Shown: positions 6,770 through 47,352 of the stretch, in pieces
Layout of the letters: each line of letters starts with the position of its first letter
Position numbering within the stretch: position 1 is the first letter of the stretch
Translations under genes and position numbers: made by a program
Assembly (NCBI GenBank): GCA_030682795.1
Contig: JAUXNJ010000037.1
Location: 1-54,094, forward strand
Length of the DNA: 54,094 nucleotides
Direction of reading: 5' to 3'
Source: Sphingobacteriaceae bacterium
GTDB lineage: Bacteria; Bacteroidota; Bacteroidia; UBA7662
Notes under the pieces: generated by a model
What the model was told of the DNA's origin: nothing
Database searches by the model: none
What the model saw: only the letters and a program-made list of their open reading frames with translations

Positions 6770-7069
6770 ATGAAAAAGCTTAAAAATATTCTTCCAGGGG
6801 AAGTGCTTTTAGAGGAGTTTTTAATTCCGATGGAGATTTCTGCCTATCGATTGGCGAAAGAAACCTATCTGCCACAAACCCGCATTTCGGAAATTATTAA
6901 AGGCAATAGAGGTGTTTCGGCGGATACTGCTTTGCGTTTTTCTAAATATTTTGGAACATCGGCCAAGTTTTGGCTCGGGCTCCAGGATGATTATGATCTA
7001 AAAGCAGAACAAACTCAAAACGAGCAGCTCTTTGATAAAATCAAGCCCAAGCGCATTGAAGTTGCTTGA
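6770..7069 (+). CDS. higA: HigA-family antitoxin / XRE regulator, without a partner toxin
   Basis: This 99-residue protein has the HigA-type helix-turn-helix: LPGEVLLEEFLIPMEISAYRLAKE, then QTRISEIIKGNRGVSADTALRFSKYFG and AKFWLGLQDDYDL, a classic HigA/VapI antitoxin layout. HigA proteins bind and inhibit the mRNA-cleaving toxin HigB and repress their own operon. HigB normally precedes higA by a few bases. Here the 330 bp upstream are repeats with no RelE/HigB-like frame, and a strong terminator follows. It is therefore an orphan antitoxin or a stand-alone regulator. Confidence 0.85.
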   Translation: MKKLKNILPGEVLLEEFLIPMEISAYRLAKETYLPQTRISEIIKGNRGVSADTALRFSKYFGTSAKFWLGLQDDYDLKAEQTQNEQLFDKIKPKRIEVA

Positions 7070-7145
7070 ATTCCTTAGCGAAGTTCCATTTTGAATTACT
7101 GACTTAGTAGGGGTGGCACAGCACCACTTCTTTTTGATTTGCTTT

Positions 7146-26140: not shown

Positions 26141-26215
26141 GGTGCTTCCTGTTGTTGGTTGTGTGTTTGGGCATTGTAATATAGAACGGAATGCCTTATT
26201 TTAGTGGTACAGCTT

Positions 26216-27067
26216 ATGAAAAACGAATTAGTTTTATACCAATCAGATGATATGGCGGAGCGCATGGAGGTGCGGCTGGATGACGAAACTGTTTGGCTCA
26301 CGCAACAGCAAATTGTTAATCTTTTTGATAGTAGCAAGGCGAATATTAGCGAGCATATTAAGTACATCTTCGAATCAGGTGAATTAGAGGAAGCCGCAAC
26401 TGTTCGGAAATTCCGAACAGTTCAAAAAGAAGGAAGGCGCAGTGTAAGTAGGGAGCTTCAGTACTATTCCTTGGATGTTATCATATCAGTGGGATATCGT
26501 GTAAATTCAAAAAGAGGCACACAATTCAGAATTTGGGCCAATCAGGTACTCAAAGAATACTTGCTTAAAGGTTATGCGGTAAACAACAGAATGGATGCAT
26601 TAGAGAGCAATATGCATGACTTGGTTACCCGATTAAACAAAGTGGAATTACAAATCCACGCCAATCTTCCACCGACACAAGGCATCTTCTTCAACGGCCA
26701 AGTTTTCGACGCCTATGTTTTTGCAGCCGATTTGATTAAAAAGGCCAAATCGAGCATCATTTTGCTAGATAATTATGTAGACGAAAGCGTATTGACCCTG
26801 CTCAGCAAACGCAAGCCCGGGGTAGCCGCAACCATTTATACCAAAAGCATCAGCAAACAGCTGCAGTTAGATGTAGACAAGCACAACAGCCAATACCCCG
26901 CTATCCAAATCATACCCTTCGCCGATGCCCACGACCGTTTTTTGATTCTTGACGAAAAGGAGCTCTATCATTTGGGCGCTTCGTTGAAGGATTTGGGCAA
27001 ACGGTGGTTTGCTTTTTCGAAGCTAGAAATGCCGGTGCGCGACTTATTGCGCAAGCTGCCGGGCTGA
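26216..27067 (+). CDS. RhuM-type DNA-binding protein with PLD-like C-terminus
   Basis: This protein has 283 residues from the ATG at 26216 (MKNELVLYQSDDM); a GTG 12 bp earlier is possible. The N-terminal half is a RhuM domain: VRLDDETVWLTQQQIVNLFDSS, EHIKYIFESGEL, YYSLDVIISVGYRVNS and FRIWANQVLKEYL. The C-terminal half (about 160-280) has ADLIKKAKSSIILLDNYVDE and HDRFLILDEKELYHLGASLKDLG, like a single phospholipase D-type repeat with HxR in place of HxK. RhuM was named in a Salmonella pathogenicity island, and its role is unknown. The coding region contains a 25-bp palindrome at 26398-26422. It has no obvious operon partner. Confidence 0.85.
   Translation: MKNELVLYQSDDMAERMEVRLDDETVWLTQQQIVNLFDSSKANISEHIKYIFESGELEEAATVRKFRTVQKEGRRSVSRELQYYSLDVIISVGYRVNSKRGTQFRIWANQVLKEYLLKGYAVNNRMDALESNMHDLVTRLNKVELQIHANLPPTQGIFFNGQVFDAYVFAADLIKKAKSSIILLDNYVDESVLTLLSKRKPGVAATIYTKSISKQLQLDVDKHNSQYPAIQIIPFADAHDRFLILDEKELYHLGASLKDLGKRWFAFSKLEMPVRDLLRKLPG
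26398..26422. repeat. Perfect 12+1+12 palindrome inside the RhuM gene
   Basis: The arm AACTGTTCGGAA, a central A, then TTCCGAACAGTT form a perfect inverted repeat encoding TVRKFRTV. The same architecture occurs at 27212-27236 and, with one mismatch, at 27582-27606. Confidence 0.9.
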
Positions 27068-27177
27068 AAGGTTTTAAAACTAACGGCTTCACACAGATTT
27101 GGGCAGCAAGCTGCTGCCCAATTACCGCAGCTGATTTTGTGCAACAAACTGTTGCACTTTTGTTAAGCACCTCAACA

Positions 27178-27246
27178 ATATTTTTCAGGAAGGCGAGCTC
27201 GATAAAAGTGCAACTGTCGCAAATTTTGCGACAGTTCAAACGAGGC
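27178..27246 (+). pseudogene. Remnant of a second RhuM gene
   Basis: One frame reads NIFQEGELDKSATVANFATVQT. This matches the RhuM segment that in the intact upstream gene reads YIFESGELEEAATVRKFRTVQ. The frame is not open beyond this piece on either side, so it is a fragment. It contains the palindrome at 27212-27236. Confidence 0.6.
27212..27236. repeat. Perfect 12+1+12 palindrome in the RhuM remnant
   Basis: The arm AACTGTCGCAAA, a central T, then TTTGCGACAGTT. It keeps the AACTGT/ACAGTT ends of the copy at 26398 but has a different inner half, with matching changes in both arms. Confidence 0.9.
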
Positions 27247-27394
27247 TGAGCTCATCTGTCTCCATAAAGGTTCCAAATTGGCACCCTAATCTACAAAGCT
27301 CGAAGTTGACCGTATTGCAAACTTTGTGCTCTTGTAAATGGGGAAAAAGTCTTTACACCTTAAAGCATCCTATTAACCCATTAAACTACCCCTT

Positions 27395-27718
27395 ATGGAT
27401 TTAACAAAGGGCGATATTGAAAACAGGATATTCAGCTTTAGGGGTATACAGGTAATGGTTGACAGAGATCTGGCCGATTTATATCAAGTAGATACCAAAG
27501 TGCTAAACCAAGCGGTCAAAAGAAATGGCGATCGCTTTCCGGAAGCATTTCTTTTCCGACTTACAGCAGAGGAGAAAATTGAACTGGTCACAAATTGTGA
27601 CCGGTTGGCCAGTCTGAAGCGCAGTTCACAGCTACCATATGTTTTCACAGAGCAGGGTGTAGCTATGCTTTCGGCCGTCAGGATGCGGTTTGTAAAGCTT
27701 TCCTTTGATAGCTACTAA
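27395..27718 (+). pseudogene. ORF6N-domain protein, truncated
   Basis: The ATG at 27395 starts a clear ORF6N domain: IENRIFSFRGIQVMVDRDLADLYQVDTKVLNQAVKRN, then RFPEAFLFRLTAEEK and LPYVFTEQGVAMLSAV. ORF6N is a phage-type DNA-binding domain. The family continues after LSAV with L(R/K)s..A..vs..I...FV, but here the sequence changes at about 27677-27680 to RMRFVKLSFDSY and stops. At 107 residues it lacks the last third of the domain and any C-terminal domain, so it is almost certainly broken by recombination. The coding region contains a 25-bp near-palindrome at 27582-27606. Confidence 0.8.
27582..27606. repeat. 12+1+12 near-palindrome in the ORF6N gene
   Basis: The arm AACTGGTCACAA, a central A, then TTGTGACCGGTT, with one mismatch between arms. 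It encodes LVTNCDR, the variable stretch before LPYVFTEQG. Confidence 0.85.
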
Positions 27719-28226: not shown

Positions 28227-29480
28227 ATGAGTTACGCCCGTCGATTAATTGAGTCAGAAATAGCTGAAAAATTAAGTGCTTCAGGGGCCTTATTGCTCAA
28301 GGGGCCTAAGGCTTGCGGAAAGACCGAAACCGCTCGGCAGTTTGCCAAAAGCAGCATCCACCTCGATACCGATGCACAGGTGCCGGTGATGATGACTATT
28401 GACCCGGGCTTGCTGCTTGCCGGTAATACACCACGGTTGCTCGATGAATGGCAGGAGCAGCCACAGCTTTGGAATTTTGTGCGTCGGGAGGTCGATATCC
28501 GCAAGCTCAAAGGACAATTCATCCTCACCGGCTCGGCCAATCCCGAAGAAAGCATTGGCATGCACAGCGGAGCAGGTAGGTTTACAGTAGTTGAAATGCA
28601 AACCATGAGCTGGCAAGAGCTGGGCCATGCCAGCGGCGCAGTAAGTTTGGCCAAGCTGCTCGAAGGGGCCAAAGTGGATTTTAGAAAGGAAGTCCTGGAT
28701 TTAGACACCACCCTCGACCGCATGGTAAAAGGAGGCTGGCCAGGTTTGCGAAACGAATCTGTAAAGCAAGCAGCGCTCTTGAACCGGGCTTACATCGATT
28801 TGCTGGCCGAGGTCGACATGAGCCGGGTGTCGCAGGTACGCCGCGATCCGCAAAAAGTACGCTCACTGTTGCGCTCTTTGGCGCGTAACTTGGCTACCCA
28901 GGTCGACAATGTGACCCTTGAAAGGGACATCCAAAAGAAAGAAGATGCTGTTTTGTCGCGCCCCACAGTGATCGATTACCTCGATGCCCTCGCGCGCCTA
29001 ATGGTTTTTGAAGAGCAGCCTGCCTTTAACACCCACATCCGTTCGGCGAATGCTTTGCGGAAATCGCCCAAGCGGCATTTTTGCGATGTGTCGCTGGCCA
29101 TTGCCGCCCTCAAACTGAGTAAAAAGCAGCTATTAAGCGATCTTAAGTACTGCGGTTTTTTGTTTGAATCGTTGGTGTATCACGATTTGAAATGTTATGC
29201 CCGCGCCAACGATGCAGAGGTGTATCATTACCGCGATTCAACAGCACTCGAAGTGGATGCCATTGTGCAGCAAAGTGGTGGTGCTTGGGCGGCGTTCGAA
29301 ATAAAATTGGGCATGGGCATGGTAGATGCCGCCGCAGCGAATCTGTTGCGTTTTCGAGAGGTGATCGATCCTGCTAAAACAGCAGCTCCCGCTTCCCTCA
29401 ACATCATCACCGGAGGCAATATGAGCTATACCCGGCCCGATGGCATTAACGTAATTTCCTTGGCTTCGTTGGGTGTTTAA
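28227..29480 (+). CDS. AAA+ ATPase with DUF4143 C-terminus
   Basis: At 417 residues it has the normal length for this group. The P-loop LLKGPKACGKTETA is at about residues 23-36. Walker B is in RLLDEWQEQPQLWNFVRREVD, sensor-like GQFILTGSANP and the GRF turn follow. The C-terminal DUF4143 nuclease-like part has YCGFLFESLVYHDLKCYA, VYHYRDSTALEVDAIV and AAFEIKLGMGM, resembling a PD-(D/E)xK core (D...ExK). These ATPases are very common in genomes and their role is not established; defence and toxin-like roles have been suggested. It is monocistronic and sits behind the 23-bp repeats. Confidence 0.85.
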   Translation: MSYARRLIESEIAEKLSASGALLLKGPKACGKTETARQFAKSSIHLDTDAQVPVMMTIDPGLLLAGNTPRLLDEWQEQPQLWNFVRREVDIRKLKGQFILTGSANPEESIGMHSGAGRFTVVEMQTMSWQELGHASGAVSLAKLLEGAKVDFRKEVLDLDTTLDRMVKGGWPGLRNESVKQAALLNRAYIDLLAEVDMSRVSQVRRDPQKVRSLLRSLARNLATQVDNVTLERDIQKKEDAVLSRPTVIDYLDALARLMVFEEQPAFNTHIRSANALRKSPKRHFCDVSLAIAALKLSKKQLLSDLKYCGFLFESLVYHDLKCYARANDAEVYHYRDSTALEVDAIVQQSGGAWAAFEIKLGMGMVDAAAANLLRFREVIDPAKTAAPASLNIITGGNMSYTRPDGINVISLASLGV

Positions 29481-29708: not shown

Positions 29709-30773
29709 CTAATCCCACCTATCTGCCCGCGCATCAAAAGGGAGGTAGCCCGCTGCTTCGAGTTCCTTTAAGCGCTGCTTCAGCACGGTGAGACTGGCCG
29801 CGAAGCGCAAGTACATGGGGTCGTTTTTGCCGCGCACTTGGCCAACCCAGGCCACATTTCCCTGCAGTTTGGCCACAAAATGTTGCTGCTGCACCAAGGC
29901 TGAACCTGACTTGCCGAGGTGGCGGTCGGTGGCTTTTTCGAGGCCCGATTTTTCGGCATCGTGGAGCATGGCCCGGATTTTTTTCAGTTGCCGGCGGTCG
30001 ATGCTCAAGCGCTCGTTCACCACCACGCCGGTTACTTGTTGCTGGCGATTTGGACCCGTGAGCCGCATTTTACGGCGGTTGATTTTAAAATCGTGCTGCT
30101 CAATCAAGGCCACAAGCGCTTCTACTTCAGCACGTGAAAAAGGCACATCGCGCGAAAAGGTGAGGTCATCGGCATAGCGGGTATAGGTCATGCCCAAACA
30201 AGCGCAGTGGACTTCTAAGGCTTGGTCGAGTTCGAGACAAACCCAGTTCGAAAGCACGGGTGAGCTGGGTGCGCCGGTAGGCAAATGACCTTGGTAGGTG
30301 CTGAGCAAACTCAAGGCGATGGCTACTTGATCGGAAAATTGAAAATAAGGCCCCTTGAACAGCTCATACACCCTTTTCCCACTGATGTTTTGAAAGAAGT
30401 CTTTTAAATCGATGTTCAACAAATGCCGCTTGCCTACATGCGGCAGGGCATTTTGAACTACATTGGCGCGTTGGTTTTCGCCTTTGGGCAAGGCCACAAA
30501 GCCATGGGCTGCATTGGACTTTACTTGCAAATAATAAGCCTGCAGGTGGTGGTTGAGCCAGCGCTGCTTCTTTTTGAGTAGGCCCGAGGGGGCTTCCAAC
30601 TTCCGTTTGCCATTTCTTTTTTTGGGGATGTAAAAGCTGCGGTAAACTGGTTCATTCAGCAGCTTTTCAAAATCCGACTTGCCCATCTTCATGAACCTGC
30701 AAACATCGCCCGGCCGGTTGAGGGTTAACAGGAGCAGCGACTTGGTGATAGCAGGGGTAGGGCCCTGCACCAT
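29709..30773 (-). CDS. Retron-type reverse transcriptase
   Basis: Retron RTs copy part of their own non-coding RNA into msDNA, a branched RNA-DNA, and serve in phage defence. From the ATG at 30773 the protein has 354 residues; an earlier ATG at 30866 lies 6 bp from the RNA's a2 arm. Visible: YRSFYIPKKRNGKRKLEAP (RT0/1), the retron hallmark SNAAHGF (NAxxH, 87-90), the catalytic IDLKDFF and RYADDLTF (200-203), LPTGAPSSPVLSN, and VTGVVVN (247-253), the other retron hallmark. No maturase or endonuclease domain follows. The matching msr-msd RNA lies directly upstream, and a DnaB-like gene lies before it. Confidence 0.93.
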   Translation of the reverse strand: MVQGPTPAITKSLLLLTLNRPGDVCRFMKMGKSDFEKLLNEPVYRSFYIPKKRNGKRKLEAPSGLLKKKQRWLNHHLQAYYLQVKSNAAHGFVALPKGENQRANVVQNALPHVGKRHLLNIDLKDFFQNISGKRVYELFKGPYFQFSDQVAIALSLLSTYQGHLPTGAPSSPVLSNWVCLELDQALEVHCACLGMTYTRYADDLTFSRDVPFSRAEVEALVALIEQHDFKINRRKMRLTGPNRQQQVTGVVVNERLSIDRRQLKKIRAMLHDAEKSGLEKATDRHLGKSGSALVQQQHFVAKLQGNVAWVGQVRGKNDPMYLRFAASLTVLKQRLKELEAAGYLPFDARADRWD

Positions 30774-30871
30774 TGGCTGCCACGATATTAGAAATATCGG
30801 TCGCTGGGGCCTGAGGGGCAGGCGGTATTTGATCGCGCTTAAAACCAGGTTTTGTTTGAAAAACATAAAAA

Positions 30872-31034
30872 AGAGCCGTTGTAAATTATCTTTGATTACT
30901 CTGCTGAGGCTGGGGGAGCGAAACGCAGTGAGCCTCCACCAACTCAGCTGAGTAGTAAGAGGTTACTCCCCGGGTTGCAGGAACACAACCACTATGTCGC
31001 AGGTTTGACATCATAATTTTGGTACAACGGCTCT
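30872..31034 (-). ncRNA. Predicted retron msr-msd RNA
   Basis: The ends form a perfect 12-bp inverted repeat: AGAGCCGTTGTA read leftward from 31034 to 31023 (a1) and its complement at 30872-30883 (a2). Between them, in transcript order, come a hairpin ATGTC/GACAT (31011-30994, 8-nt loop), a hairpin GGTTG/CAACC (30990-30973, 8-nt loop), and a long imperfect hairpin at 30958-30896 (CTCAGCTGAGTAGTAA against TTACTCTGCTGAG). That is the order msr stem-loops, msd hairpin, a2 known for retrons, about 163 nt. The usual AGC after a1, whose G is the branch point, is not obvious. Confidence 0.85.
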
Positions 31035-31044
31035 ATGTCTTTGT

Positions 31045-32103
31045 TTAAAATGGAGATTCGGATCCTGGTATGGGTTCAAAACCAAGTCCGCTCAATCGAT
31101 CCATCGCAATTTTAAATGCTGGATCATTATTTTGGATGCTATGAAAGCGGGCAAAAGCCTGGTCGTGCCTCAACTCCACAGTGCCGGTTTTGCCATTTCT
31201 GTTTTTAGCGATGATGAGGTGGGTGTTTGCGGCATTATCTCCGTAATATTCCGTTTCGTATCCGTAATATTCAGGACGGTACAAGAAGAACACGATGTCA
31301 GCGTCTTGCTCAATGGAGCCGCTGTCGCGCAAATCCGCTAATTGTGGAATTTTATCGCCACCGCGTGTTTCTACCGAACGACTTAATTGACTGGCGGCAA
31401 TGACGCACACTTGCTCTTCGCGGGCGATTTTTTTGAGCATGCGGCTGATATAGCTCACCTCTGCCTCGCGGTATTGCCGGGGTTTGTTGGAGCTCAGCAA
31501 TTGCAGATAATCTACGATGATGACCTTGGTGCCATGCTCGGCAATGTGCTGTTTGCAGAGGAGGCGCAGGGCATCTATGCCGTTATTGAGTCCACCGTAA
31601 CAGTGCAGCTGTAATTTGTTCCCATCTTCTTGCGCCCTGTTTAGCTCCGCTTGCTCATGCTCTGGGAGTTGTTGGCTGCGGATCTTCTTGCCATCCATGC
31701 CACTCAATGCCGACATGATTCTCACGGCCAGTGCCGATTCGCTCAAATCGTAGCTGCAATACAGCACCGGCTGTTTGGCCGACAATTGCACGGCCAAATT
31801 CACCAAAAGTTGGGTTTTGCCCATGGCCGGGCGGGCGCCTAAAACCACCAACTCGCCAGCCGTAAAGCCCCCTATTACACTGTTGAGGTCCTCAAAATCA
31901 GTGCGCATGTATTGTTGCTCTACATTTTCCAGCTTCGAAAGCTGGTTTTGCAGAAACGTACCAAGGGGCAAAGTTTGCTGCTTTTTAGAAAAGGCGAGCG
32001 CGCTTTCATCGCACAGCTGTTGGAGCTGCACCAGGAGCTCTTCCTCCTCCATGCTGCGCTGTTGCAGCAAGGATTCGAGTTTGGTTTTCAGGTCGGTTGG
32101 CAT
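31045..32103 (-). CDS. DnaB-like RecA-fold ATPase, probable retron partner
   Basis: This 352-residue protein corresponds to the C-terminal helicase domain of DnaB. Walker A GARPAMGKT is at 89-97, Walker B KVIIVDYLQLL at 192-202, followed by AASQLSRSVETR, LADLRDSGSIEQDADIVFFLYRPEYY and AKNRNGKTGTVELR, all well conserved. The DnaB N-terminal primase-binding domain is missing and replaced by about 65 mostly helical residues with coiled-coil character (LLQQRSMEEEELLVQLQQL). The main replicative DnaB would be about 450-500 residues. The stop lies 10 bp before the retron a1 arm on the same strand, so gene, RNA and RT probably form one transcript. A role as retron effector or accessory is inference. 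Confidence 0.8.
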   Translation of the reverse strand: MPTDLKTKLESLLQQRSMEEEELLVQLQQLCDESALAFSKKQQTLPLGTFLQNQLSKLENVEQQYMRTDFEDLNSVIGGFTAGELVVLGARPAMGKTQLLVNLAVQLSAKQPVLYCSYDLSESALAVRIMSALSGMDGKKIRSQQLPEHEQAELNRAQEDGNKLQLHCYGGLNNGIDALRLLCKQHIAEHGTKVIIVDYLQLLSSNKPRQYREAEVSYISRMLKKIAREEQVCVIAASQLSRSVETRGGDKIPQLADLRDSGSIEQDADIVFFLYRPEYYGYETEYYGDNAANTHLIIAKNRNGKTGTVELRHDQAFARFHSIQNNDPAFKIAMDRLSGLGFEPIPGSESPF

Positions 32104-32820: not shown

Positions 32821-33438
32821 TCAAGGATTCTTAGTTCTTCTGCTTTCCCAGATCGCTTTGATGGCTGCACCGACCTTGGCAAACTCCTCAAACGTAAACT
32901 CATCCGTTTTGGCGTTGTTGCACCAATAACAAGCCATCACGCAATTTTCAGGGGCATATTCAAAGTTGGAATTTTTCCGGTCGATTTCCAGCGACCAGCC
33001 GCGTTCCGATTTTTTGAAGAGTTTGCCCTGTTCACCCAGCTGCGCAATCACAGCTTCCGTAATGTTGCAGTATTCGCAATGCACTTGCTTTAGCAACGCT
33101 TCGAATTGAGCATGCGGAAAAATGCTTGCATACCGATCCGCATAAGCCTTTTGCCATTGGCTGAATTCAACTTCATGTGCCTTTTTCAATGCTTGCATGT
33201 TTTCGTACAAAGCCTTAACGGTAATATTTGAATGGCCAATGGTTTCTTCTTGGCTTTTTTGCCAATAAGCGGCGCTGTACAAATGCACCAGCTCGTCGGT
33301 GATTTTAAATTCAAGGAATTCAGACAGTAACAATTGGTTTTTGCCATGAAGGGCTACTTCAAACACGTATAAATCAAGCCGTGTTTTGAAGCTGCTTTTT
33401 TGGGCGCGAAGGTAGCGGGTCTTTTGGTCTTTTTCCAT
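32821..33438 (-). CDS. HNH endonuclease-like protein, last gene of the defence operon
   Basis: This 205-residue protein has a helical N-terminal two thirds and an HNH-type zinc ribbon at the C-terminus. CEYC lies near residue 120, then GWSLEIDRKNSNFEYAPENCVMACYWCNN carries the catalytic-type LEIDRKN (in place of DHI), the Asn, and the second CxxC; AKTDEFTFEEF follows. HNH proteins with this layout cut DNA. The N-terminal part matches nothing I know. It follows the acidic protein by 79 bp in the same orientation, so it may be co-transcribed with the defence operon. Confidence 0.7.
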   Translation of the reverse strand: MEKDQKTRYLRAQKSSFKTRLDLYVFEVALHGKNQLLLSEFLEFKITDELVHLYSAAYWQKSQEETIGHSNITVKALYENMQALKKAHEVEFSQWQKAYADRYASIFPHAQFEALLKQVHCEYCNITEAVIAQLGEQGKLFKKSERGWSLEIDRKNSNFEYAPENCVMACYWCNNAKTDEFTFEEFAKVGAAIKAIWESRRTKNP

Positions 33439-33517
33439 GTAACAATCTGCGAAGGAAATGCTGATTGGTATGCTATGAGTTCAACCGCATATTAGCATTT
33501 ATAGGAGGGAAAATAAC

Positions 33518-34300
33518 CTAATAACGTTTGATTTTCCTGATGCCAATATGTTCTTCTATGTACCATCGTAAACTCTCTAGCTCATCCTTATAGTCGGGCA
33601 TTGATTCGAATGCTTGCTCCAAATTTGCACGAAGCTCACATTCGTCGTTCATGAGGTAATCAAAATAGGAAAAGTCTGAGTGATTTGTCTTGAATACTTT
33701 GAAATAGTTCACCGAAAAACCCAAGTAGCGCTCGAAGTACTCATTGGTGTTGGCTGCTGATTCTGCGTCCCAACTATCGGTATCACCCATAATGTCTTCC
33801 ACTACCTTGGCTTCCTTGGTGAGCCAATGGGCCATGTCTTCTAAATCACAGGTAGTGATGGCTTTTTGTAGACGTTTTTGGAGCTCCACTTCTTTCCATT
33901 CGTACTCTTCATAGGTAGCCGATAATTCACTTTCATCTGCATTCCAATCTATTTCAAGGTCCTCTTCGAGAAAATCACGATAGTCTTGCTGTTGATACAA
34001 ATAGGCTGCAATAGCTATTTTCTTGTAGGGAGTAACACCGTTTAAAAAAGACTTGGCTTCGTCTAAAATCCTTTTTTGGGTATATTCCGTAAGTTCACCG
34101 TGATGATAGTAGTCCTCGTAAATACCAACACCTATCCATTTGGGTGAAGGTTGTGTGCCCAAATCGCCTTCCTCGTAATCTTCCATCAAAGCCTTCAAAA
34201 ATGGCCCCAATTGAAGTTTGCCGTGGTCTGCCAAGCACTTCAATACGTCATCGGGGAGCTGAGAATTCGTCGAGGCGGGTTGGTTTATTGAGTTTTCCAT
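33518..34300 (-). CDS. Acidic hypothetical protein (260 aa)
   Basis: I recognise no family. It is strongly acidic over most of its length, with blocks such as FLEEDLEIDWNADESELSATYEEYEWKEVEL, and ends with a basic tail, IGIRKIKRY. It is predicted soluble and mostly helical, with no cysteine motif or P-loop. It starts 54 bp after the McrC-like gene and is on the same strand, so it is probably part of the operon. Its charge could mean a DNA-mimic or regulator, but that is speculation. Confidence 0.6.
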   Translation of the reverse strand: MENSINQPASTNSQLPDDVLKCLADHGKLQLGPFLKALMEDYEEGDLGTQPSPKWIGVGIYEDYYHHGELTEYTQKRILDEAKSFLNGVTPYKKIAIAAYLYQQQDYRDFLEEDLEIDWNADESELSATYEEYEWKEVELQKRLQKAITTCDLEDMAHWLTKEAKVVEDIMGDTDSWDAESAANTNEYFERYLGFSVNYFKVFKTNHSDFSYFDYLMNDECELRANLEQAFESMPDYKDELESLRWYIEEHIGIRKIKRY

Positions 34301-34354: not shown

Positions 34355-36589
34355 TTACTCCTTCAGCGAATCTTTTAAAATAGTTTTGATTTTATTGTTT
34401 TCAGGACTTTTGATAGACTTGAGCCTTGCATACCTGAAAGTGCGAATATGTCCATCCTCGAGATGTAATGGATGCTTCCATACACCAACCCTGCTCAATT
34501 CTAATACGAATATCTCTTTATCATCGTCAAGATAAAGTGGGTGTCCTTTTTTAAAGACCAATTTTCGAGCGATGCTTTGAAATTTATTTATACGGTAGTA
34601 GCTGCTTACGCCCTGGCCCTTAAAATAGGGTGCAAAATAGTTCACCATGCCTTCAAAAACGAGCGAGGGTTTTGAATGAAACAAAATGCTCGGATTATCA
34701 TCTTCCTCTAGATGCTTTTTGTAAGCTGACATTCGTTCGCCGGCAATCATGCCGATCACTAAACCCGCATCGTCATTTTGGTACATTTTACCACGCTGAG
34801 GAGGAGTATTTTGCAGAAGTGTTTCGGAATTGGCTTCTAGAATGTTTTTAATGTGTTCTTCCAACAAATGCTTTCCGCCATCGTAACCGGGCAAAACGGG
34901 AATAGCTCCAATGTTTACTTTTTTAATGGTATTGAAGTAGTGACTGTTTTCTTTGATGGCGTTGGCTTCATCGCGACCCGGGTAGAGGATATATCCACCA
35001 ATGACTTCTTTTGACCGGTATTGTCCGCCCTTTTCTTCGTAATAAATGGCATCGCGGTAGCGGTGCATTTGATTGATGGCATCTTCGGGTGGTGCGTCAG
35101 GCATTCCTTCCTTTTCGTCGGAAGCTAATCGGTATTTAGCATCGAACAAAAAGGTAAATACCTGGTCGTCGAGCAGGTCTTTTTTGTGAATACGTAATAC
35201 GATGTCGGGCTTTTGATGAGAGGTGTAGCTGCCCGTTTGGTATTTTTTATCAAAGTCGTTTAGGTATTGTAATTCATGAAACAGTTCTACCAGCTCTCCC
35301 GAAGGCAATGAAAAACTTACCCTCGATTTTCTGCCTTCCTTGATTTCAACATTAAATTTGCTTACCCTTATTTCTGCTAATTCTAGTTCATTTGGCTTTT
35401 CCTGTAGTAACTCCTCAAGCACACCTTTCATTTCAAGGAAGCACCAAATCTCATATAGTTCAGCAATATCTTTTAATTCGAGTTTATTTGCGCCTTCAAA
35501 AAACGAATATCCAGACCGCAGAAGCAGCCAGTTTCTCAAGATGCCAGCATAACCATGTTTGCGTTGTAGCACCAATGACTCTTGCCGAAAACCTTCGAAA
35601 GCGCCAATTTCTTTGAAAAAACGATGATTAGCCAGTTGCGACAGTTTTTCGCCCATGGCATTCATCTCAAATTGGTAAGCCGCCGTAAGTTTATTGCTGT
35701 ATTTGGTCTCAATGTATTTTTTAATGAGGTGAAATTTCTGCTGAACCTCCAACAACGCTGCTTTCACAAAGCGATTTTCAAAGGTATCAGTACGCAGTAC
35801 CTTCTCTTTGATGAGGTAACGCTTGTTGGGAATGTGGCGATGGCGGTGATATTGCTCCGCTAACTGTGGGCTTGCTTGCCTGATTTTTTCAGGTCGAACC
35901 CAATAGCTTTCTTCCTGCAATCGCCTATGGGGATTGCGAACCACATACTCCAAGTCTTCTACCAATCCCCGAAAAACCTCACTAAAAATGGCCCACCAAA
36001 TGATGTCATTGTTTTGGCCTTGAGAACTGGACTTAAAATTTTGATAGGTCTTTTTCAAAAAATCGAGCACCAAATTGGGATAGGCCTCTTCAATTTCCTG
36101 AAGGATGTTGCGATAATCAGTTTTGTAATCGAGCTTGATGGGAAATACTTCAAACCCCAAACTGGTTTCTTTGCTGCCTGTAGCTGTATTGTAGACGATT
36201 TTTAGCTGATGTTTACCGATTTCATTGCCAAAATTAAGGCTACCCATCAGCACAAACACATTTCCTATTTTTTTGAGTAGAAAAGCTTCTTCCCATTCTT
36301 TTATCCGCGTAAGTACACGCGCGTCAGTTACATCCTCATGAAACTCAATGTTGAAATGGTAGAGCTTGTTTTCGAAAAAAATGGGATGCGCCATAGTATG
36401 CGCTTCGTAATTAACAGCTTCATTAGTATTTGGATGCCATAAACTCAGTTCGCAGCCGGTTGTAAAGGCATAGGCTGTAGCCGTATCAATTTGGTGAATG
36501 CGTTTTTCAGCCTTGGCAAATGCAATTTCAAGCTGCCGTGTTTCGACAGTTAATTTGAAAGCGGGATGCTGAAATCTCAAGACTTCCAT
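34355..36589 (-). CDS. McrC-like DUF2357 nuclease subunit
   Basis: The ATG at 36589 overlaps the McrB-like stop (TAATG) and gives 744 residues; a start 9 bp earlier is possible. The long N-terminal part is beta-rich (about 1-200), then helical. A PD-(D/E)xK nuclease core sits at about 460-485: QKPDIVLRI, then TFLFDAKYRLA, as in the DUF2357/DUF524 group. In McrBC-type systems this subunit cuts modified or foreign DNA when driven by the GTPase McrB. Partner order B-C with coupled translation fits. It is much longer than E. coli McrC (about 350), as is common for this group. Confidence 0.8.
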   Translation of the reverse strand: MEVLRFQHPAFKLTVETRQLEIAFAKAEKRIHQIDTATAYAFTTGCELSLWHPNTNEAVNYEAHTMAHPIFFENKLYHFNIEFHEDVTDARVLTRIKEWEEAFLLKKIGNVFVLMGSLNFGNEIGKHQLKIVYNTATGSKETSLGFEVFPIKLDYKTDYRNILQEIEEAYPNLVLDFLKKTYQNFKSSSQGQNNDIIWWAIFSEVFRGLVEDLEYVVRNPHRRLQEESYWVRPEKIRQASPQLAEQYHRHRHIPNKRYLIKEKVLRTDTFENRFVKAALLEVQQKFHLIKKYIETKYSNKLTAAYQFEMNAMGEKLSQLANHRFFKEIGAFEGFRQESLVLQRKHGYAGILRNWLLLRSGYSFFEGANKLELKDIAELYEIWCFLEMKGVLEELLQEKPNELELAEIRVSKFNVEIKEGRKSRVSFSLPSGELVELFHELQYLNDFDKKYQTGSYTSHQKPDIVLRIHKKDLLDDQVFTFLFDAKYRLASDEKEGMPDAPPEDAINQMHRYRDAIYYEEKGGQYRSKEVIGGYILYPGRDEANAIKENSHYFNTIKKVNIGAIPVLPGYDGGKHLLEEHIKNILEANSETLLQNTPPQRGKMYQNDDAGLVIGMIAGERMSAYKKHLEEDDNPSILFHSKPSLVFEGMVNYFAPYFKGQGVSSYYRINKFQSIARKLVFKKGHPLYLDDDKEIFVLELSRVGVWKHPLHLEDGHIRTFRYARLKSIKSPENNKIKTILKDSLKE

Positions 36590-39500
36590 TAGTCCCAATA
36601 GGAGGTAAAGCCCTGGTTATCGAGTTTTGCTTTCATGGTTTTCAGCTTCAAATGACAATTCTCAAAATCCACTGGCAGCTTGGCGATGAGTTCATCGATC
36701 ACTTTTTCGCATCGCCCTTTGTCTCCTTCAATACGAGGCAGTAGCTTCATGTCTAAAACCTCATCCATGCATCTATTTACCCAGTTTGTTGGTTGTTTTT
36801 TCTGTTTGCTTCCATAGTAGCAGTATACCAGCAATTCATCTCTTACTCTGTAAGCCAATTTAAAAGGCGTCCCTTCGAGAATTTTATTGATATCCTCAAG
36901 TTGTTGAATAATGGTCTTACCTGCTTTGCCTAAACTTTGAAATGCCGTTTGTCCACCTTGCAAATTCCCAAATACCAAAGAAGGGTGATAGTATTCATCC
37001 GGATAATCCAGGTCGTTTATTGCTGTTTCTAAACCATCCATGAGGTTTACCTGATTCATTTCAATGGTCATAGCCCGATCAAGCACTTTACGACTGAAGC
37101 TGTGGGTGGTTTCATCCATGTTTACGGTTCCCATTACCACCAAATTGGCCGACAGCTGAATGCCGTGTTGTAGAAATTTATTCTGTAAAGACGGGTCGTC
37201 AGAGATACCTAAATCAATCCAAAACTGTTCTCCCATCGCATCAGCATAACGACTTAAATTGGCAGCGCTGATGAAAGGGTCAGTAATCATTTCACTGCCT
37301 TTGTAAGTACATGTTTCAATAATGCTCAGGTATTCTGCAAAATATTGCTCTACAGGTGCCAGGTTCATTTCATCGAGGCAGAGGAAAAATGGTACCTGCG
37401 GATAGCGATGAGCTTTGGCTAAAAAGCGCAAAAAGGTGGTGACTTTGTACTCTAATTTGCCACTTAAGCGGCTTTCATAACCAATGAGTTCCGATGAGTC
37501 GTGCCAGTTGGGTAAAACGGGAATTAACTCAAAGTTGCCTGGGCGATTGTCATCACGCAATTCATCCAAATAGCAAGTTTTGTAAGCCAATTTGCGGACC
37601 AACCTACTTTTGCCTGTACCCGAAATGCCTGCAAGGAGAATAAATGGCTTTGTTTGTATGGCATTGAAATATCGACCGTCTTCTGTTTCAAACGCAATGT
37701 CATTAGTAAATGAAATCGGTGCGATTTCCTCTTGATTGGTATCACCCTCGTAATTGTATGATTCAAAGGGCTGAAGATTTACTCTCTTAGGTTTCTGATA
37801 TGATTTGTGCCACACAAATGAATCAATACTAATGGAAGGCGATACTGGTTCAATGCTTTCTGCAATGAATGCAATTCGTGCGACTTGATCATCACTTGTA
37901 TATTCATCGAAATTTTTGTGCGCCCAAGCAATGCCCTCAAGTTCTCCCCAATTTTTCTTTTTGTAATTGTCTTCAGTAGCAACATCGGTGATGATAGCCC
38001 GATAGCGCACAAAGTTTTCGTGCGCATAAAACAATTCAAACGAACGATCTCTTTTGATTTTGGCTTCGAGTAACGAAATAGTATCACCGGTTCCCGACGG
38101 CATTTTTGACCACCATATTACAATTCCGTTGTTGCCTTCCAATGCTGAGATGGCTTCTTGAATCCAATTTCCTTTGTTCGGGTCATTGGCTACCAAGCCG
38201 CCAATACTTACATTCCAACTTGGCCGCACTTCGTTGTGATACAAAACACTGGTATAGAGTGCGGTTGTATTTTCGAGCAGTGCAGCCGAAATGCCATGTT
38301 TTTCGAAAAAGCCGTTTAAATCGGATACGAAAAGTTGTCGGTTGTAAGGTTTGTTGAGTAGTTTCTCGGCGATGAGTGCTTTATGATCTTCTGATACAAT
38401 TGGGATGCCAACCATCGGATTGGTGGCATATTCTAAGGCATTGCGGATACCGATGGTTAGACTGTCGTAGTTGTTGCCATTGATTTTGTAACGGAGCAAA
38501 TTGGCAATCCAGTCTTTCATGTAAATGCCTGAGGTAAATACCCGCTTATCTTCGGTTTCGTTCCACGCTATTTTATTGGTAGCATTGGCATCCATATAAC
38601 TTACCAACTGCCCCATCAAGCGGGCAAAATCCTGCTCTTCGCTGCCAGCAGCTAATTGCTGCTCAATAAAATCAAGGTATTTGCCACCGTTTGTTTCACT
38701 AAACAGGTTTGAGATGCCATGATAAAAATCAACAGGCTTTTGATGGGCTTTGAATTTTTCAAATACTTTGAAGGCTTTTTCGAACCAAATGGAAGTGGCC
38801 TCAGACAGTTCTTTGATTTTGGGATCGTTTTTGATTTTTTCAAAATCGATGACTGTGCTTTTTTCTTCCACGGTTCCTCCTAATAATTGAGCAATGTTGT
38901 TCAGTACTTCTGCTGGCGTTTCCGATTGAAATAGTTGCTGTAAATCACGCACTTTTTCAAGCCGTTGTTCTGGGTCTTTGACGCCATTTTGCCATAAAAT
39001 GTAGGTTTCTGATTGGCCTAACTGCCGACTCCAGTTCCAATCAGCAGGTATGCTTACCCGATCTATGACCTCAAATTTGATAAACTCTTCCCATTCGCCT
39101 GCAGCTTCATAACGGTGGTAATCGCTGTTGAAAGTAGATACATCGCGTTTAGAATCGTATGTGGGTTGAATGCCTAATTCAGCAATTTTGGTGTACAAGG
39201 CTTCTTTGTTGTGTCTATTCACTACAAAAACCACATCCTCTACTTGGTTGCCTCCAAATTTGGCTGAGTTCCAAAAAAAGTACTTTTTATTGGGGGCTAA
39301 CAACGGCGCGTAGTTAACGGCAGCGCCCGATTTGATTTCGTAGATTTTTGCACTGTTCATGCCGAGTAATTTTAGTTTCGGTATAATTTTAAACCCATGG
39401 CTTTCAAGTAACTTGAAGCAAGGGGTGTTTTTTCCACCGTCGAAGCTTCTGCGATCTAATTCACTCCCGTTTGCATAAATATTGGCATAGGATACTGCCA

Positions 39501-39636
39501 GTTTAGGAGGATACCTTTTGCCATCGTAGAGCACATCATAATACTGCGAGTCGCCATCGGTTGGAATGCCGCGCTCGTTAATGTGTTGAATGGCGCGTTC
39601 TAAATGTGCTTTGGTTATGTTGGTGGGTATCGACAT
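36589..39636 (-). CDS. McrB-like AAA+ GTPase with EVE-like reader module
   Basis: The ATG at 39636 overlaps the stop of the HNH gene, giving 1015 residues. The N-terminus (1-95) resembles the head domain of ScoMcrA-like proteins (YDVLYDGKRYPPKLAVSYA...SFDGG). A region at about 475-600 with WNVSIGGLVANDPNKGNW, IVIWWSKMPSGTGD and YRAIITDV looks like an EVE/PUA-type domain that could read modified bases. The McrB AAA+ domain follows: LLAGISGTGKSRL (Walker A, about 668), then FFLCLDEMNLAPVEQYFAEYLS, the McrB Walker B signature. It drives the McrC-like nuclease encoded next. Confidence 0.85.
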   Translation of the reverse strand: MSIPTNITKAHLERAIQHINERGIPTDGDSQYYDVLYDGKRYPPKLAVSYANIYANGSELDRRSFDGGKNTPCFKLLESHGFKIIPKLKLLGMNSAKIYEIKSGAAVNYAPLLAPNKKYFFWNSAKFGGNQVEDVVFVVNRHNKEALYTKIAELGIQPTYDSKRDVSTFNSDYHRYEAAGEWEEFIKFEVIDRVSIPADWNWSRQLGQSETYILWQNGVKDPEQRLEKVRDLQQLFQSETPAEVLNNIAQLLGGTVEEKSTVIDFEKIKNDPKIKELSEATSIWFEKAFKVFEKFKAHQKPVDFYHGISNLFSETNGGKYLDFIEQQLAAGSEEQDFARLMGQLVSYMDANATNKIAWNETEDKRVFTSGIYMKDWIANLLRYKINGNNYDSLTIGIRNALEYATNPMVGIPIVSEDHKALIAEKLLNKPYNRQLFVSDLNGFFEKHGISAALLENTTALYTSVLYHNEVRPSWNVSIGGLVANDPNKGNWIQEAISALEGNNGIVIWWSKMPSGTGDTISLLEAKIKRDRSFELFYAHENFVRYRAIITDVATEDNYKKKNWGELEGIAWAHKNFDEYTSDDQVARIAFIAESIEPVSPSISIDSFVWHKSYQKPKRVNLQPFESYNYEGDTNQEEIAPISFTNDIAFETEDGRYFNAIQTKPFILLAGISGTGKSRLVRKLAYKTCYLDELRDDNRPGNFELIPVLPNWHDSSELIGYESRLSGKLEYKVTTFLRFLAKAHRYPQVPFFLCLDEMNLAPVEQYFAEYLSIIETCTYKGSEMITDPFISAANLSRYADAMGEQFWIDLGISDDPSLQNKFLQHGIQLSANLVVMGTVNMDETTHSFSRKVLDRAMTIEMNQVNLMDGLETAINDLDYPDEYYHPSLVFGNLQGGQTAFQSLGKAGKTIIQQLEDINKILEGTPFKLAYRVRDELLVYCYYGSKQKKQPTNWVNRCMDEVLDMKLLPRIEGDKGRCEKVIDELIAKLPVDFENCHLKLKTMKAKLDNQGFTSYWD

Positions 39637-40328
39637 CAAGGATGGGCTCTTATAATATTATCATCGAGGCAGTCTTCGTAGGTGTTCTTGAAGGCGTGAA
39701 TCAAACCAGTACGAATACCTGGAAATTCCTCGAAAACTTGCATCCAAACCAACCAAAAACCATTGGTAATGGCTAATTCAATGATGTCATCATCGTTTAG
39801 TTTGCCATCTCTTCGTTGGATTAGTTTTCTTTCAGCCAATCGGAGAACATACTCGCGAGCCATATATCTATCATCTTGTGGTTGCCTTCTCGGTGTAGTA
39901 TGACCACAATCTAAGTTTAAGAGTCTGATTGTTTCTTGCGATATATTCTGCTCAGCGGCGTCAAGGCCCGGATTGCAAGAAATGGTGCCGTCAACGTTTA
40001 CTACAAATATTGGACGTGTATTGTGAATGTGTGGCCAATAAAATTCGTCAAAGTCTATGTTCTCCGCACCTTTAGCCAAATTGCAATTTTTGCAACTGAG
40101 AAGAAAATTGGTCCAACTGAATTCTAAATGCTCGTATCTAGCAACTGATTTCGGAAGAATGTGTTCGACTTCCATATTTACCATCGGTATCAATCGGTCG
40201 CAATAATTGCAATAATAGTTTGGTGAATGGCCAAAGTTTCGCAGTAAAACAGCTTTTGCATTGCCATAAGGCTTATATTCTGCGCGCACACCCTCTTCGC
40301 CCACATTCCATTTTATTACTGGTCTCAT
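39636..40328 (-). CDS. ptuB: PtuB-like HNH nuclease of a Septu pair
   Basis: This 230-residue protein has the HNH zinc finger CNYC at 40-43, MEVEHILPKS at about 52-61, then FLLSCKNCNLAKG with the second Cys pair at 79-82. This is the layout of PtuB and related HNH proteins. In Septu defence PtuA (ATPase) and PtuB (nuclease) form one complex. The gene follows the PtuA-like ATPase by 10 bp and overlaps the McrB-like start. The C-terminal half is helical and unassigned. The symbol is by context and family look; the HNH could also belong to a McrBC-associated set. Confidence 0.75.
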   Translation of the reverse strand: MRPVIKWNVGEEGVRAEYKPYGNAKAVLLRNFGHSPNYYCNYCDRLIPMVNMEVEHILPKSVARYEHLEFSWTNFLLSCKNCNLAKGAENIDFDEFYWPHIHNTRPIFVVNVDGTISCNPGLDAAEQNISQETIRLLNLDCGHTTPRRQPQDDRYMAREYVLRLAERKLIQRRDGKLNDDDIIELAITNGFWLVWMQVFEEFPGIRTGLIHAFKNTYEDCLDDNIIRAHP

Positions 40329-40338
40329 AGGCAGTGGT

Positions 40339-41604
40339 TTAGATTTTGCTCTCCGATTTCAACAAGGCCACATAAGCAGGATCATCTCTGAATTTCAATT
40401 CTAAATTTTTGAGCTCTTCATCAAAAGAATTGATTTTGAGATTTTTGTTGTTTTTCAATTGCTCCAATTTGGCGAAATAGGCATCGGCAGCTTTCAACTT
40501 TTCGAGGTATGCCTCACTGCGATGGGGATTTTCTACCTCCATCTCCTTTTCAATAATTTCTTCCAAACCCTTATTCCGATAGTCCCATTGCATATTTTTT
40601 CCCTCTAAATCAATCAATTCGTGGTTTTGTAACGATTGAATGATAAAGGGCGAATGTGTGGTAGTGATAAACTGCAATTTGGGAAAAGCCTTTTTGAAAC
40701 TCTCCACGATGGTGCGCTGCCATTTGGGGTGCAAATGCAAATCCAGTTCATCTATCAAGACAATACCCTCGGCTTCGGCAGCAGCATGAATCCCTAGATG
40801 TGGATTGAGCGTTACACAACGGTATGCCAAATCAGCCGACATGGCAATCACATTGCGGTATCCATCGCTGAGCATGTTCCAATAAACGCTTTTAGTTCTT
40901 CCATTTTGAGTTATGGTTTCGAGGCACATCGTATCTTCTTCTACATCGAAAAATACCCGAGACGTCCCTTCTAAAAACGTACCTACACACGCTTTAACTA
41001 CATTAAGCAAGCCAGCATCCTTGTTTTTCTGAAGAATGGCTATTTCTTGGGTTTTCATCCAAGCCATAAAGGTTTTGCTTTGTACCAAGGGTTCTGCCGC
41101 CTGAAAGTAACCATCAAACCTTGAAGATTTAGGCTTGGTTTTGATGCCTCCTGACTCCTTCCACAAACGGCCAGTGCCATAATAGGCGAAAACTGGTAAA
41201 GGTGTATCTGATCCGTTTTGTATTTCCTTTTGAATAAGCTTTGCTTTTTTCTGTAATTCAAGACTCTGCCCCAATTTTTTGGTAGTGCCTTCGATGGTGC
41301 TTAATTCGCGTAGCCAAGTATAGGCTTGTTGCCTAAACTCACCAGTGGCTTCAATTTGAACTGGCAAGTTCTTTTCCTTGGTCAACTCAAAATCCATCTT
41401 CCTTACATCTTGCTTTTTGATAGTTTTTGAATAATGCCCATCAATCCCCAAAAAGAAGGTGCTCATGCTCAATGCCAATGCATCTAACAGCGCAGTTTTG
41501 CCCGTTGCGTTGTTGCCTATGATGACATTGAAGTGGTCGTCGAATGAAAAATCTCGTTCCTTAAAACCACGGTAGTTTTTAACGCGAATGCTTTTGATTT
41601 TCAT
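40339..41604 (-). CDS. ptuA: PtuA-like AAA ATPase of a Septu pair
   Basis: The 421 residues form an OLD/SMC-type ABC ATPase. Walker A IIGNNATGKTALLDAL is at 28-43, with a long insert between. Then comes LSDGYRNVIAMSADLAYR (signature region) and Walker B GIVLIDELDLHLHPKWQ at about 277-293. The His switch is in FITTTHSPFIIQSL. There is no TOPRIM, so it is not OLD. Next to an HNH gene this fits PtuA of Septu. A plain RecF/OLD-like ATPase of another system remains possible. It is 13 bp after the Mod stop, as part of the operon. Confidence 0.8.
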   Translation of the reverse strand: MKIKSIRVKNYRGFKERDFSFDDHFNVIIGNNATGKTALLDALALSMSTFFLGIDGHYSKTIKKQDVRKMDFELTKEKNLPVQIEATGEFRQQAYTWLRELSTIEGTTKKLGQSLELQKKAKLIQKEIQNGSDTPLPVFAYYGTGRLWKESGGIKTKPKSSRFDGYFQAAEPLVQSKTFMAWMKTQEIAILQKNKDAGLLNVVKACVGTFLEGTSRVFFDVEEDTMCLETITQNGRTKSVYWNMLSDGYRNVIAMSADLAYRCVTLNPHLGIHAAAEAEGIVLIDELDLHLHPKWQRTIVESFKKAFPKLQFITTTHSPFIIQSLQNHELIDLEGKNMQWDYRNKGLEEIIEKEMEVENPHRSEAYLEKLKAADAYFAKLEQLKNNKNLKINSFDEELKNLELKFRDDPAYVALLKSESKI

Positions 41605-41617
41605 GGTTCTAATTTAC

Positions 41618-44239
41618 TTACATTGTTAGAATTTTGGTGCTTTCTTCGCCAAACTGACTGATTACACGCACGGCTACCTGACGGCCTTTGCGGTAGGGAA
41701 TGGGGTGACTGCTGTGGCCATACAAACGATCAAAAGCCTCATCGTCAATTTCGATGCGCAGGGTTTGCTGGGCTTGTTGTTTGCGTTTGTTGCGGCTTTC
41801 GCTCAAATTGCCTAAGCCTTTTTTCCATTTGTCGAACTCGTCTTTGTCGCCACCGCAAAAGAATACTTGCTTTACCACAAAGCTGCTGCCGTCGTAGTCG
41901 TCGTCTACCATCCAATAGGCAATGTCGTGGATGTCGCGGGGTTTTACCTCGTCTTTGATGGGGTCGTAAATGTCTAAGCCCAGGATTTCTGCCACCATTT
42001 CGTTGCCGTTTCCTGTTGACTTTAACACCACGTCGGGCTCGCCGATGGTGACGAAACTGCCTACATTTTTGGGCTTTTTAAGCAACCCGTCTTGCATCAA
42101 ATCGTCGTGCATGCGGGCTTTGGTGACTTCGAAGCTGCCCATGCTGCTGGTTACGCTGTCGTTGCTGATGTTGCTTTCAAAGGCAAAACCCAGCACCACC
42201 AACCAATCGGCATCGGGGCGCTGGCGACATTCTTTGATGGCCGCACTTACCGCCAATTTGCTCACGCTGCCAAACTTAGGGCCAATGTGCAAATAGGCGG
42301 TTTTTTCAAGGCCCTGTGCATCGTCGTAAAAGCCACGGGCATGCAGGTATTCGCTGTTGAGTTTTTCGATGCGCTTGAAAACCGCCCGCTCGTTGCGTAT
42401 GCCATTCATGATACCCGCACTGCGCAAATGATCGTAAATTCGCTCTTCAAAATTTTCATCGTGGTTGTATTGGGCGTCTAATTCTTCGGGACTTACCGGA
42501 TTGAAACTTTGCAGGGTTTCTACGGTGAACGGACCAGCCACGCGCAATTTGCCCTTGTCTTCATAAGGCTTGTCGTACAGGGTTTCGGTATCGGCAGGTT
42601 CGTCGTTGGCCAGGCTTTTGAGGGTAATGTGTGGCACTTCTTCGTACACAAATCCCTGGCGGATATCGCCGGTGCATTCATGCTCGGCTTTGGTGACCAC
42701 CATTTTTTTGATTTTACCGTCTTTTTCCTCGCGTTTTACCAAACTATCAGCATAGAGGTGGTAATAGGGGAAAGAAGCTGTCATCAGCCTTGTTTTGGCA
42801 ATGTTGAGAGCAATGCGGCTGGTATCTATGGTAATCCAACGGCGGCCCCATTGCTCCGCCACAAAAGCAGTGGTGCCACTGCCGCAGGTGGGATCTAACA
42901 CCAAATCACCTGGGTCGGTTGTCATGAGTATGCAACGCTGAATAGCTGTAGTGCTGGTTTGAACAGTATAGACCTTCGGGTCACTTCTGCTTTGAATACC
43001 ACCAATATCAGTCCATATGTTAATGATTGGATTAACAGGGAAGTCTTCAAAAAATCTTATGTATCTAAGTCTGCTTCCTTGGGCGAATACTCTGCCTAAT
43101 TTGATCAACCTTTTCATACCCTCTTCGTGTGTTTGCCATAACCTGCCTTTACTTGGAGAAAATACTCTACCCTCATAGTTGACATTGAATGTTTCTTTGA
43201 TACTTCCTGTTTGCGCAGATAAGTCGGAATCCGTAAACAGCCTTAAATCGTCTATATTTCCTTTGTAATTTGCGGAATTAGTAATGTTCCCGTCCCTATC
43301 TATGCCTTTTGTATATCGGCTGGCACCCTCATCACCTGGTTTTTTTTCTACAAACAATTGACGATATTTCAACAGATCAATTGATTTTGAATACCAAATA
43401 ATGAAGTCAGATGTTGATGGCAAAAATTTCGATAGAAGAGGACTGCTTTTCTGATATGTGATTATGCTAACAAAATTCTCACTCCCAAAGACCTCATCCA
43501 TTAGGTTTCGAACCAAGTGTACATTCTCATCACTGATCTGCACAAAACAACTGCCGCTTTCGGTCAACAATTCTTTGGCCACCAATAGTCTGTCGCGCAA
43601 ATAGCTCAGGTAGCTGTGAATGCCGTCGGCCCAGGTATCGCGGAAGGCTTTGATCATTTCAGGTTCGCCGCTCAGGTGTTCGTCGGCGCCATCTTTTACA
43701 TCGCGGCTGTTTAATTTCATTTGCCAATTGCCACCGTACTTAATGCCGTAGGGCGGATCAAAGTAGATGGTCTGCACTTTGCCGGCCATGCCTTCGCGTT
43801 CTAACAAGCTGGCCATGGTAAGCAGGCTATCGCCTTGTATGAGGCGGTTGCTCCAGCCATCTTGGTGGTGGTAATAACCGGCTACTTTTTCTTCCTCGTC
43901 AACTTCGAGGGCGTTGCCAAACAGGTCGTTCAGGCTCAGCTGCACGGGTTGCTTGTTTTCTTGCAGGCGGTAGAGGCTTTGCATGATCAGCTCGGGGCTG
44001 ATGTGCTCGTGCCGGTAGAGGCTGCGTATGTCTAATTTGAGCAGTTCGTCGCGGTTATCGTTGCCGTATTTGTTGAGCCACCACAACTCGGGGTCTTGGC
44101 CACGGTGTACCACAGGGTTTTTGGGCAGGCGCAGGTAATCGGTTTCGGGTTCCGATACCATGCTGCTAGCCGTTTCGTAGCCGGCTTCTTCTTGGCTGGG
44201 TATGTGGGGGCGGGTATCTTTGTGCTTATAGCTTTTCAT
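41618..44239 (-). CDS. mod: Type III restriction-modification methyltransferase (Mod)
   Basis: This is a beta-class DNA adenine methyltransferase of 873 residues, longer than the usual 600-700. Motif [16 protein letters not shown] is at about 158-170. Motif [25 protein letters not shown] comes later, around 446-470, the order expected for type III Mod. A target-recognition part of roughly 250-400 lies between. The C-terminal 350 residues, beginning near [11 protein letters not shown], are an additional conserved extension. Mod gives specificity and, with Res, forms the restriction complex. The ATG overlaps the Res stop by 4 bp. Confidence 0.93.
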
Positions 44240-47200: not shown

Positions 47201-47352
47201 CGAACAGGAATGGCGGTGTTGATGGTTGGGTCGAAGGGCCTGCGACTTTTTTCCTTTTTGGTATAGTCGAGTGTACCGTCGGGCAAAGTTCGGTAGTGAT
47301 ATTCAGGCTCAGCATAGGGCCCGTTGAGTATGGGGTTTTGGTTTTCAGCCAT
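44236..47352 (-). CDS. res: Type III restriction enzyme Res subunit
   Basis: This 1038-residue DEAD/DEAH-type SF2 helicase-translocase has a C-terminal nuclease. Walker [18 protein letters not shown] is at about 167-183 and [12 protein letters not shown] at about 312. Motif [14 protein letters not shown], motif [16 protein letters not shown] and motif [12 protein letters not shown] follow. The nuclease domain near 925-950 has [25 protein letters not shown], a PD-ExK-type core with E in place of the usual ExK lysine pair. It begins 2 bp after mazG and ends in mod (4-bp overlap). Confidence 0.93.

Follow-up and report, generated by a model that had tools for sequence, protein, structure and literature searches.

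A retron locus with a DnaB-like helicase partner, read as a new retron type, in a Bacteroidota defence island

Is the structured stretch that precedes a reverse transcriptase (RT) gene in a Sphingobacteriaceae defence island a genuine retron RNA, and which protein would serve as its effector? The question arises from a stretch of 54,094 nucleotides (contig JAUXNJ010000037.1 of assembly GCA_030682795.1; hereafter the window), for which a preliminary description, made from the letters alone, had proposed a retron msr-msd RNA directly upstream of an RT with NAxxH and VTG motifs. Retrons are sorted by effector, with 13 types named on this basis (PMC12548924, PMC11555353) and sixteen subtypes counted elsewhere (PMC13405049). 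The way in which msDNA controls the effector is established for a minority of types. At the window locus, the putative RNA (30872..31034, minus strand, 163 nt) lies between the RT gene (29709..30866, minus strand) and a gene absent from the preliminary description, which encodes a DnaB-like helicase motor of 352 aa (31045..32103, minus strand) and stops 10 nt upstream of the RNA.

The 385-aa RT was recognised as a retron RT through Pfam RVT_1, the PADLOC retron RT models and its motifs. NAxxH in region X (N139, A140, H143), YADD, and VTG in region Y (residues 278-280) are all invariant in the RT family alignment, so that both motifs named at the outset are present. The best PADLOC models, RT-Protease_XI (7e-87) and RT-TIR_XII (4e-79), cover only the RT part of the protein (residues about 44-367), and neither Pfam nor PADLOC revealed a C-terminal fusion; the enzyme is accordingly annotated as having no fused effector domain. 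Among solved structures, those nearest to it by sequence profile are the RTs of retrons Ec67 (E 1e-59) and Ec86 (E about 1e-50). A second RT of the host genome (L001; G000:C35, 172627-173247) has a stronger RVT_1 match (5e-45).

The predicted fold of the 163-nt RNA has an energy of -62.6 kcal/mol, compared with -41.5 +/- 4.4 kcal/mol for dinucleotide shuffles (z -4.8), none of 200 shuffles being as good. Its outer boundary is a perfect 12-bp a1/a2 inverted repeat, formed by AGAGCCGTTGTA (a1, 31034-31023, minus strand) and TACAACGGCTCT (a2, 30883-30872, minus strand); the repeat had been reported before, and its ends proved exact to the base. The two msr stem-loops and the long msd hairpin of the preliminary description are likewise present in the fold. 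Stem-loop 1 (30994..31011, minus strand) is paired in 71% of alignment cells, in a region where the relatives align poorly, and stem-loop 2 (GGTTGTGTTCCTGCAACC; 30973..30990, minus strand) in 97%, with compensatory changes in two of its five pairs. The predicted msd, or reverse-transcribed part, occupies 30891..30972 (minus strand) with putative ends, and contains the hairpin at about 30954-30897. The stem of this hairpin differs in sequence from locus to locus and, in many loci, the hairpin alone often folds just modestly better than shuffles. A pseudoknot that would pair the hairpin loop with the bases following stem-loop 2 passed p<=0.05 at no more than 8 of the 38 loci. The hairpin tip, CTCACTGCGTTTCGCTC (30916-30932, minus strand), resembles CTCACTGCGTTCCGC in many relatives and is no genomic repeat, occurring as a single copy in the host genome; it is possibly a conserved sensor element. 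No Rfam family matches the RNA at gathering score, and allowing E values as high as 10 added no relevant match.

Conservation was assessed on a covariation alignment of 31 sequences, in which 91% of cells are paired and both-sided changes occur in 19 of 28 pairs. The covariation score is 0.280, against 0.125 +/- 0.008 in shuffles, none of 500 of which reaches it; slid versions of the pairing score 0.033-0.090. Across the 31 sequences, compensatory changes occur in eleven of the twelve a1/a2 pairs, the twelfth being invariant; the a1/a2 pairing, whose lack of conservation in close homologues the preliminary description had named as evidence against its reading, is thus both conserved and covarying. 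The related loci that were read carry the same RNA at the same place: in most of them a1 starts about 4-20 nt past the stop codon of the DnaB-like gene, and only a short gap separates a2 from the start of the RT. A covariance model built from the 31 aligned RNAs (R1), which scores the window RNA at 115 bits, finds the RNA in eight further loci of the DnaB-RT type outside its training set and gave no match in the searched retron loci without DnaB. Of 390 whole genomes, R1 hit 12, always at the expected place in the DnaB-associated RT set. The covarying a1/a2 repeat, the stem-loops, the hairpin, the adjacency to the RT and the conservation in distant relatives all support the original proposal, and on this comparative evidence 31034-30872 (minus strand) is almost certainly a genuine retron RNA.

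The branch site is less conventional. The usual AGC context, reported as not evident after a1, is indeed absent. The a1/a2 duplex leads through a short bulge into a 6-bp inner helix, in which AATTAT (31013..31018, minus strand) pairs with ATAATT (30884-30889, minus strand), and then to a guanosine at 31012. This guanosine, G23 of alignment A3, is invariant and stands at the end of the duplex in a non-AGC context. In relatives the inner helix reads ACTTAT/ATAAGT, ATTTAT/ATAAAT or GATTAT/ATAATC, with compensatory changes in three of its six pairs, the remaining three being invariant. The earlier suspicion that the priming G sits elsewhere, or that the subtype is unusual, is thus borne out by an invariant G behind a helix that the preliminary description did not mention. 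Since retrons place the branching G at that position, G 31012 (minus strand) is proposed as the site of 2'-OH priming and is, judging by alignment and fold, most likely the branch.

The gene upstream of the RNA encodes a linker region and a C-terminal RecA-type ATPase domain, and its product is the predicted effector or partner of the retron. It matches Pfam DnaB_C at 2.3e-75, and its residues 11-324 align to positions 119-434 of TIGR00665 (DnaB) with 266 bits, below the cut-off of 385; the DnaB linker and motor are kept and the N-terminal primase-binding domain is missing. When modelled with AlphaFold2 (mean pLDDT 78), the protein matches structures of DnaB, loader- and ssDNA-bound forms among them. 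The Walker A Gly and Lys are invariant among 11 aligned DnaB-like proteins, and the Walker B Asp, the motif-H3 Arg and the finger Lys are kept in all 38 loci of the family described below. The catalytic Glu (SLEM in the host DnaB) is replaced by Asp in 26 of the 38, including the window, so ATP hydrolysis may be weak. Three divergent loci (L043, L044 and L075) encode longer DnaB-like proteins of 436-446 aa. From these features we infer a working, possibly slow or regulated, ring motor that is uncoupled from primase. A motor protein without a nuclease or any other obvious toxic domain is an unusual choice of effector. A further DnaB_C protein, an orphan of 299 aa (L252:5110-6009, minus strand) in a genome of the window's genus, was considered as a family member and rejected, there being neither an RT nor an R1 match nearby.

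Relatives of the RT were sought at increasing distance. None was found within the window's order, which is small. In a class-wide search, 27 of 395 genomes gave matches with E values no higher than 1e-30; those of the upper group are about 35-47% identical and have frames of similar length. Scanning viral and genome contigs with a single sequence returned nothing; an alignment-based profile scan gave 80 loci from GTDB contigs and another 80 from viral contigs. The family considered here comprises 38 related loci, namely the window, 13 loci from whole genomes, 23 distinct GTDB loci and one viral contig. The viral locus (L130:4865-7607, on an IMG/VR contig) is a DnaB retron beside an integrase and phage-type repressors, and a 252-aa gene there, of no known family, overlaps the end of the RT by 4 nt.

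All 38 loci, each of which extends far enough upstream to show it, have a DnaB_C gene immediately before the RNA and RT and in the same orientation. It was found at none of about 54 loci whose RTs fall below the clade's score, among them RTs with long C-terminal extensions. When 416 neighbouring ORFs were compared all against all, the DnaB-like and RT families were each present in 38 of 38 loci, and the next family in 10 of 38. Distances between RTs and between DnaB-like proteins correlate across the 38 loci (r 0.81), and in the 13 genomes the RT follows the retron DnaB (r 0.84; 0 of 2000 permutations) and not the host DnaB (r 0.03), which indicates that the pair moves as a unit independent of its hosts. 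All 13 module-bearing genomes checked have a separate full-length host DnaB of about 500-530 aa, and these host proteins form a clade of their own (support 100), apart from the retron DnaB-like proteins. Taken together, the DnaB-like protein is very probably a functional partner of the retron.

The FastTree phylogeny of the RTs places 29 DnaB-associated RTs, including that of the window, in one clade (support 97), with weakly supported deeper branching; the nearest branches include RTs with long C-terminal extensions. Retron-like RTs in or near this clade adjoin Cas1 at L079 (RT 6055-7092), L092 (RT 2737-3747) and, as judged by eye, L042, and have there neither a DnaB-like gene nor the RNA. 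It is possible that the DnaB-RT lineage was recruited to CRISPR adaptation at these Cas1-adjacent loci.

The surroundings of the locus bear on its role. The window is a defence island. Its McrBC-like pair (34355-39639) consists of a PDDEXK_7/DUF2357 protein and an AAA protein of 1016 aa. HNH and P-loop ATPase genes that look like PtuB and PtuA are found at 39636-41604, an N6 DNA methylase with a restriction enzyme of the BPTD_3080 type at 41618-47352, and RhuM/ORF6N genes at 26204-27718. The 1016-aa AAA protein is matched only by the candidate defence model PDC-M26A. Across 39636-47352, the PtuB/PtuA-like genes directly adjoin the methylase and the restriction enzyme, an arrangement that looks like a restriction-modification operon with Septu-like genes set into it. 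Two genes between the retron and the McrBC-like pair (32821-34300; 205 and 260 aa) have no match in Pfam, PADLOC or NCBIfam. These defence-island neighbours, together with the viral-contig setting of L130, support a defence role of the retron, short of proof, and the role is probably anti-phage. Two other neighbours were set aside. The PtuAB-like genes, which correspond to the type I-A retron effector pair and were weighed as the effector, are separated from the retron by 9 kb, have restriction-modification genes both in the gap and on the far side, and belong to no family that is conserved beside relatives; the downstream AAA/DUF4143 gene (28227-29480, plus strand) is on the opposite strand and is not conserved.

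How might these parts work together? In studied retrons the partner is a growth-stopping effector (PMC12548924, PMC11555353), held by the RT-msDNA until phage release, and by this analogy the DnaB-like ring would be the held toxic partner. In the folded transcript, a1/a2 and the inner helix would offer G 31012 to the RT, which would prime on the 2'-OH of this G and copy the msd in the upward direction, starting immediately ahead of the AGATAATT strand, to yield a branched RNA-DNA hairpin, the msDNA. As in studied retrons, the RT-msDNA would bind the DnaB-like ATPase ring and hold it inactive. The ring could then be freed or activated by a phage, either through what the phage does to the msDNA or through one of its replication proteins, and the freed helicase, working on DNA in replication, would halt the growth of the phage and probably that of the cell as well. 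We consider it somewhat probable that the locus is a retron operon of a new type in which a DnaB-like helicase is the effector, held by RT-msDNA and freed or activated by phage action; that the partner acts by stopping growth is given similar, better than even, credence on the strength of the same analogy. More tentatively, and with rather less than even confidence, the helicase effector may be released on phage replication stress and attack or jam forks, the msDNA being primed from a UAUG-context G after an extended a1/a2 and serving as a loading or blocking substrate for the hexameric helicase.

The main rival makes the DnaB-like partner a non-toxic device for delivery or sensing. On this view the msDNA hairpin would be the site from which the helicase ring is loaded onto replication intermediates of the phage; alternatively, a ring seated on msDNA would detect the SSB or replisome proteins of the phage. 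Retention of the linker and of an ssDNA-translocating motor, with loss of the primase-binding domain, would suit such a device, as would inheritance of the module as a unit; the growth-stopping partners of studied retrons (PMC12548924, PMC11555353) speak against it, as does the fact that only the DnaB-like gene is conserved nearby as a possible effector, and we regard it as unlikely. A helicase that adjoins a producer of RNA-DNA hybrids in a constant one-to-one partnership could also be an msDNA maturation or housekeeping factor, unwinding the hybrid or displacing strands within a module of non-defence function. Retron RTs of neighbouring clades, however, manage without a DnaB-like gene, none of about 54 RT loci at greater distance having one, which leaves this explanation improbable.

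Two further alternatives were weighed. Before relatives were compared, it was conceivable that the DnaB-like gene was a degenerate copy of the host DnaB, an unrelated neighbour of an effectorless retron; co-occurrence in 38 of 38 loci refutes this, as do the matching trees, the lack of likeness to the host phylogeny and the largely kept motor motifs, so that its probability is now negligible. Alternatively, the structured stretch could serve the RT gene as a leader RNA or a terminator-like element, given its position between two genes of one operon and the T run at its end. Against this stand the covarying long-range a1/a2 pairing with an invariant G where the duplex ends, the pair of msr stem-loops, the msd hairpin and the adjoining RT with NAxxH and VTG, and we hold it to be very improbable. 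The helicase-effector retron remains the preferred reading.

A DnaB-like effector would come from a class of proteins that by nature form rings around single-stranded DNA. This offers a testable link between msDNA and a translocating ring, and suggests that replication is what the retron guards. The DnaB-associated retron is widespread and common in Bacteroidota. It is easily overlooked because annotation tools would report a 'replicative DNA helicase' and an RNA without an Rfam family. The covariance model R1 and the non-AGC branch context are new aids for finding and engineering retrons.

The order of the window locus agrees with the canonical effector-ncRNA-RT order of retron operons, as drawn in PMC12548924. 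As judged with the PADLOC-DB models, the locus has none of the accessory proteins or fusions that define the known retron types I-XIII, and no retron accessory model of that database matches the DnaB-like protein, which is matched weakly by mad8 alone. Searches of the open literature for retrons with DnaB, helicases or new types, a body of text outside which the founding type classification falls, retrieved no description of a DnaB retron, the full-text matches for retron and DnaB being judged by title, abstract and counts. The best PADLOC relatives of the window RT belong to type XI, a fusion of RT and trypsin-like protease, and type XII, an RT-TIR fusion; in contrast to these, the window RT has no C-terminal effector domain and is accompanied by a separate DnaB-like gene upstream, and R1 misses their loci. 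Retron Ec67/Eco2 (type I-C, RT-Toprim), the source of the closest solved RT, has its effector as a fused Toprim domain, whereas the window partner is a separate helicase motor; the Ec67 msr appears to have a similar GGTTGTG...GCAACC stem-loop. Retron Ec86/Eco1 (type II-A) shares the canonical logic of effector, RNA and RT, with an alignable RT; its effector is a nucleoside deoxyribosyltransferase-like protein and its branch context is conventional. On the helicase side, the motor domain and fold are common to the retron protein, replicative DnaB and phage G40P-type helicases, as are the motor motifs apart from the catalytic Glu; the partner differs from replicative DnaB in having no N-terminal domain in most loci, a score below the curated cut-off, Asp mostly in place of Glu, and a separate clade. 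Mad8 of the MADS defence system, whose model gives weak HMM matches to all 11 aligned DnaB-like proteins (1e-6 to 1e-8), is a related P-loop ATPase used in defence, its model involving neither RT nor retron RNA. We read the combination of a DnaB-like protein, an msr-msd RNA and an RT as a new retron type, undescribed in the sources searched, and its constant DnaB-like partner is what sets the window locus apart as unusual.
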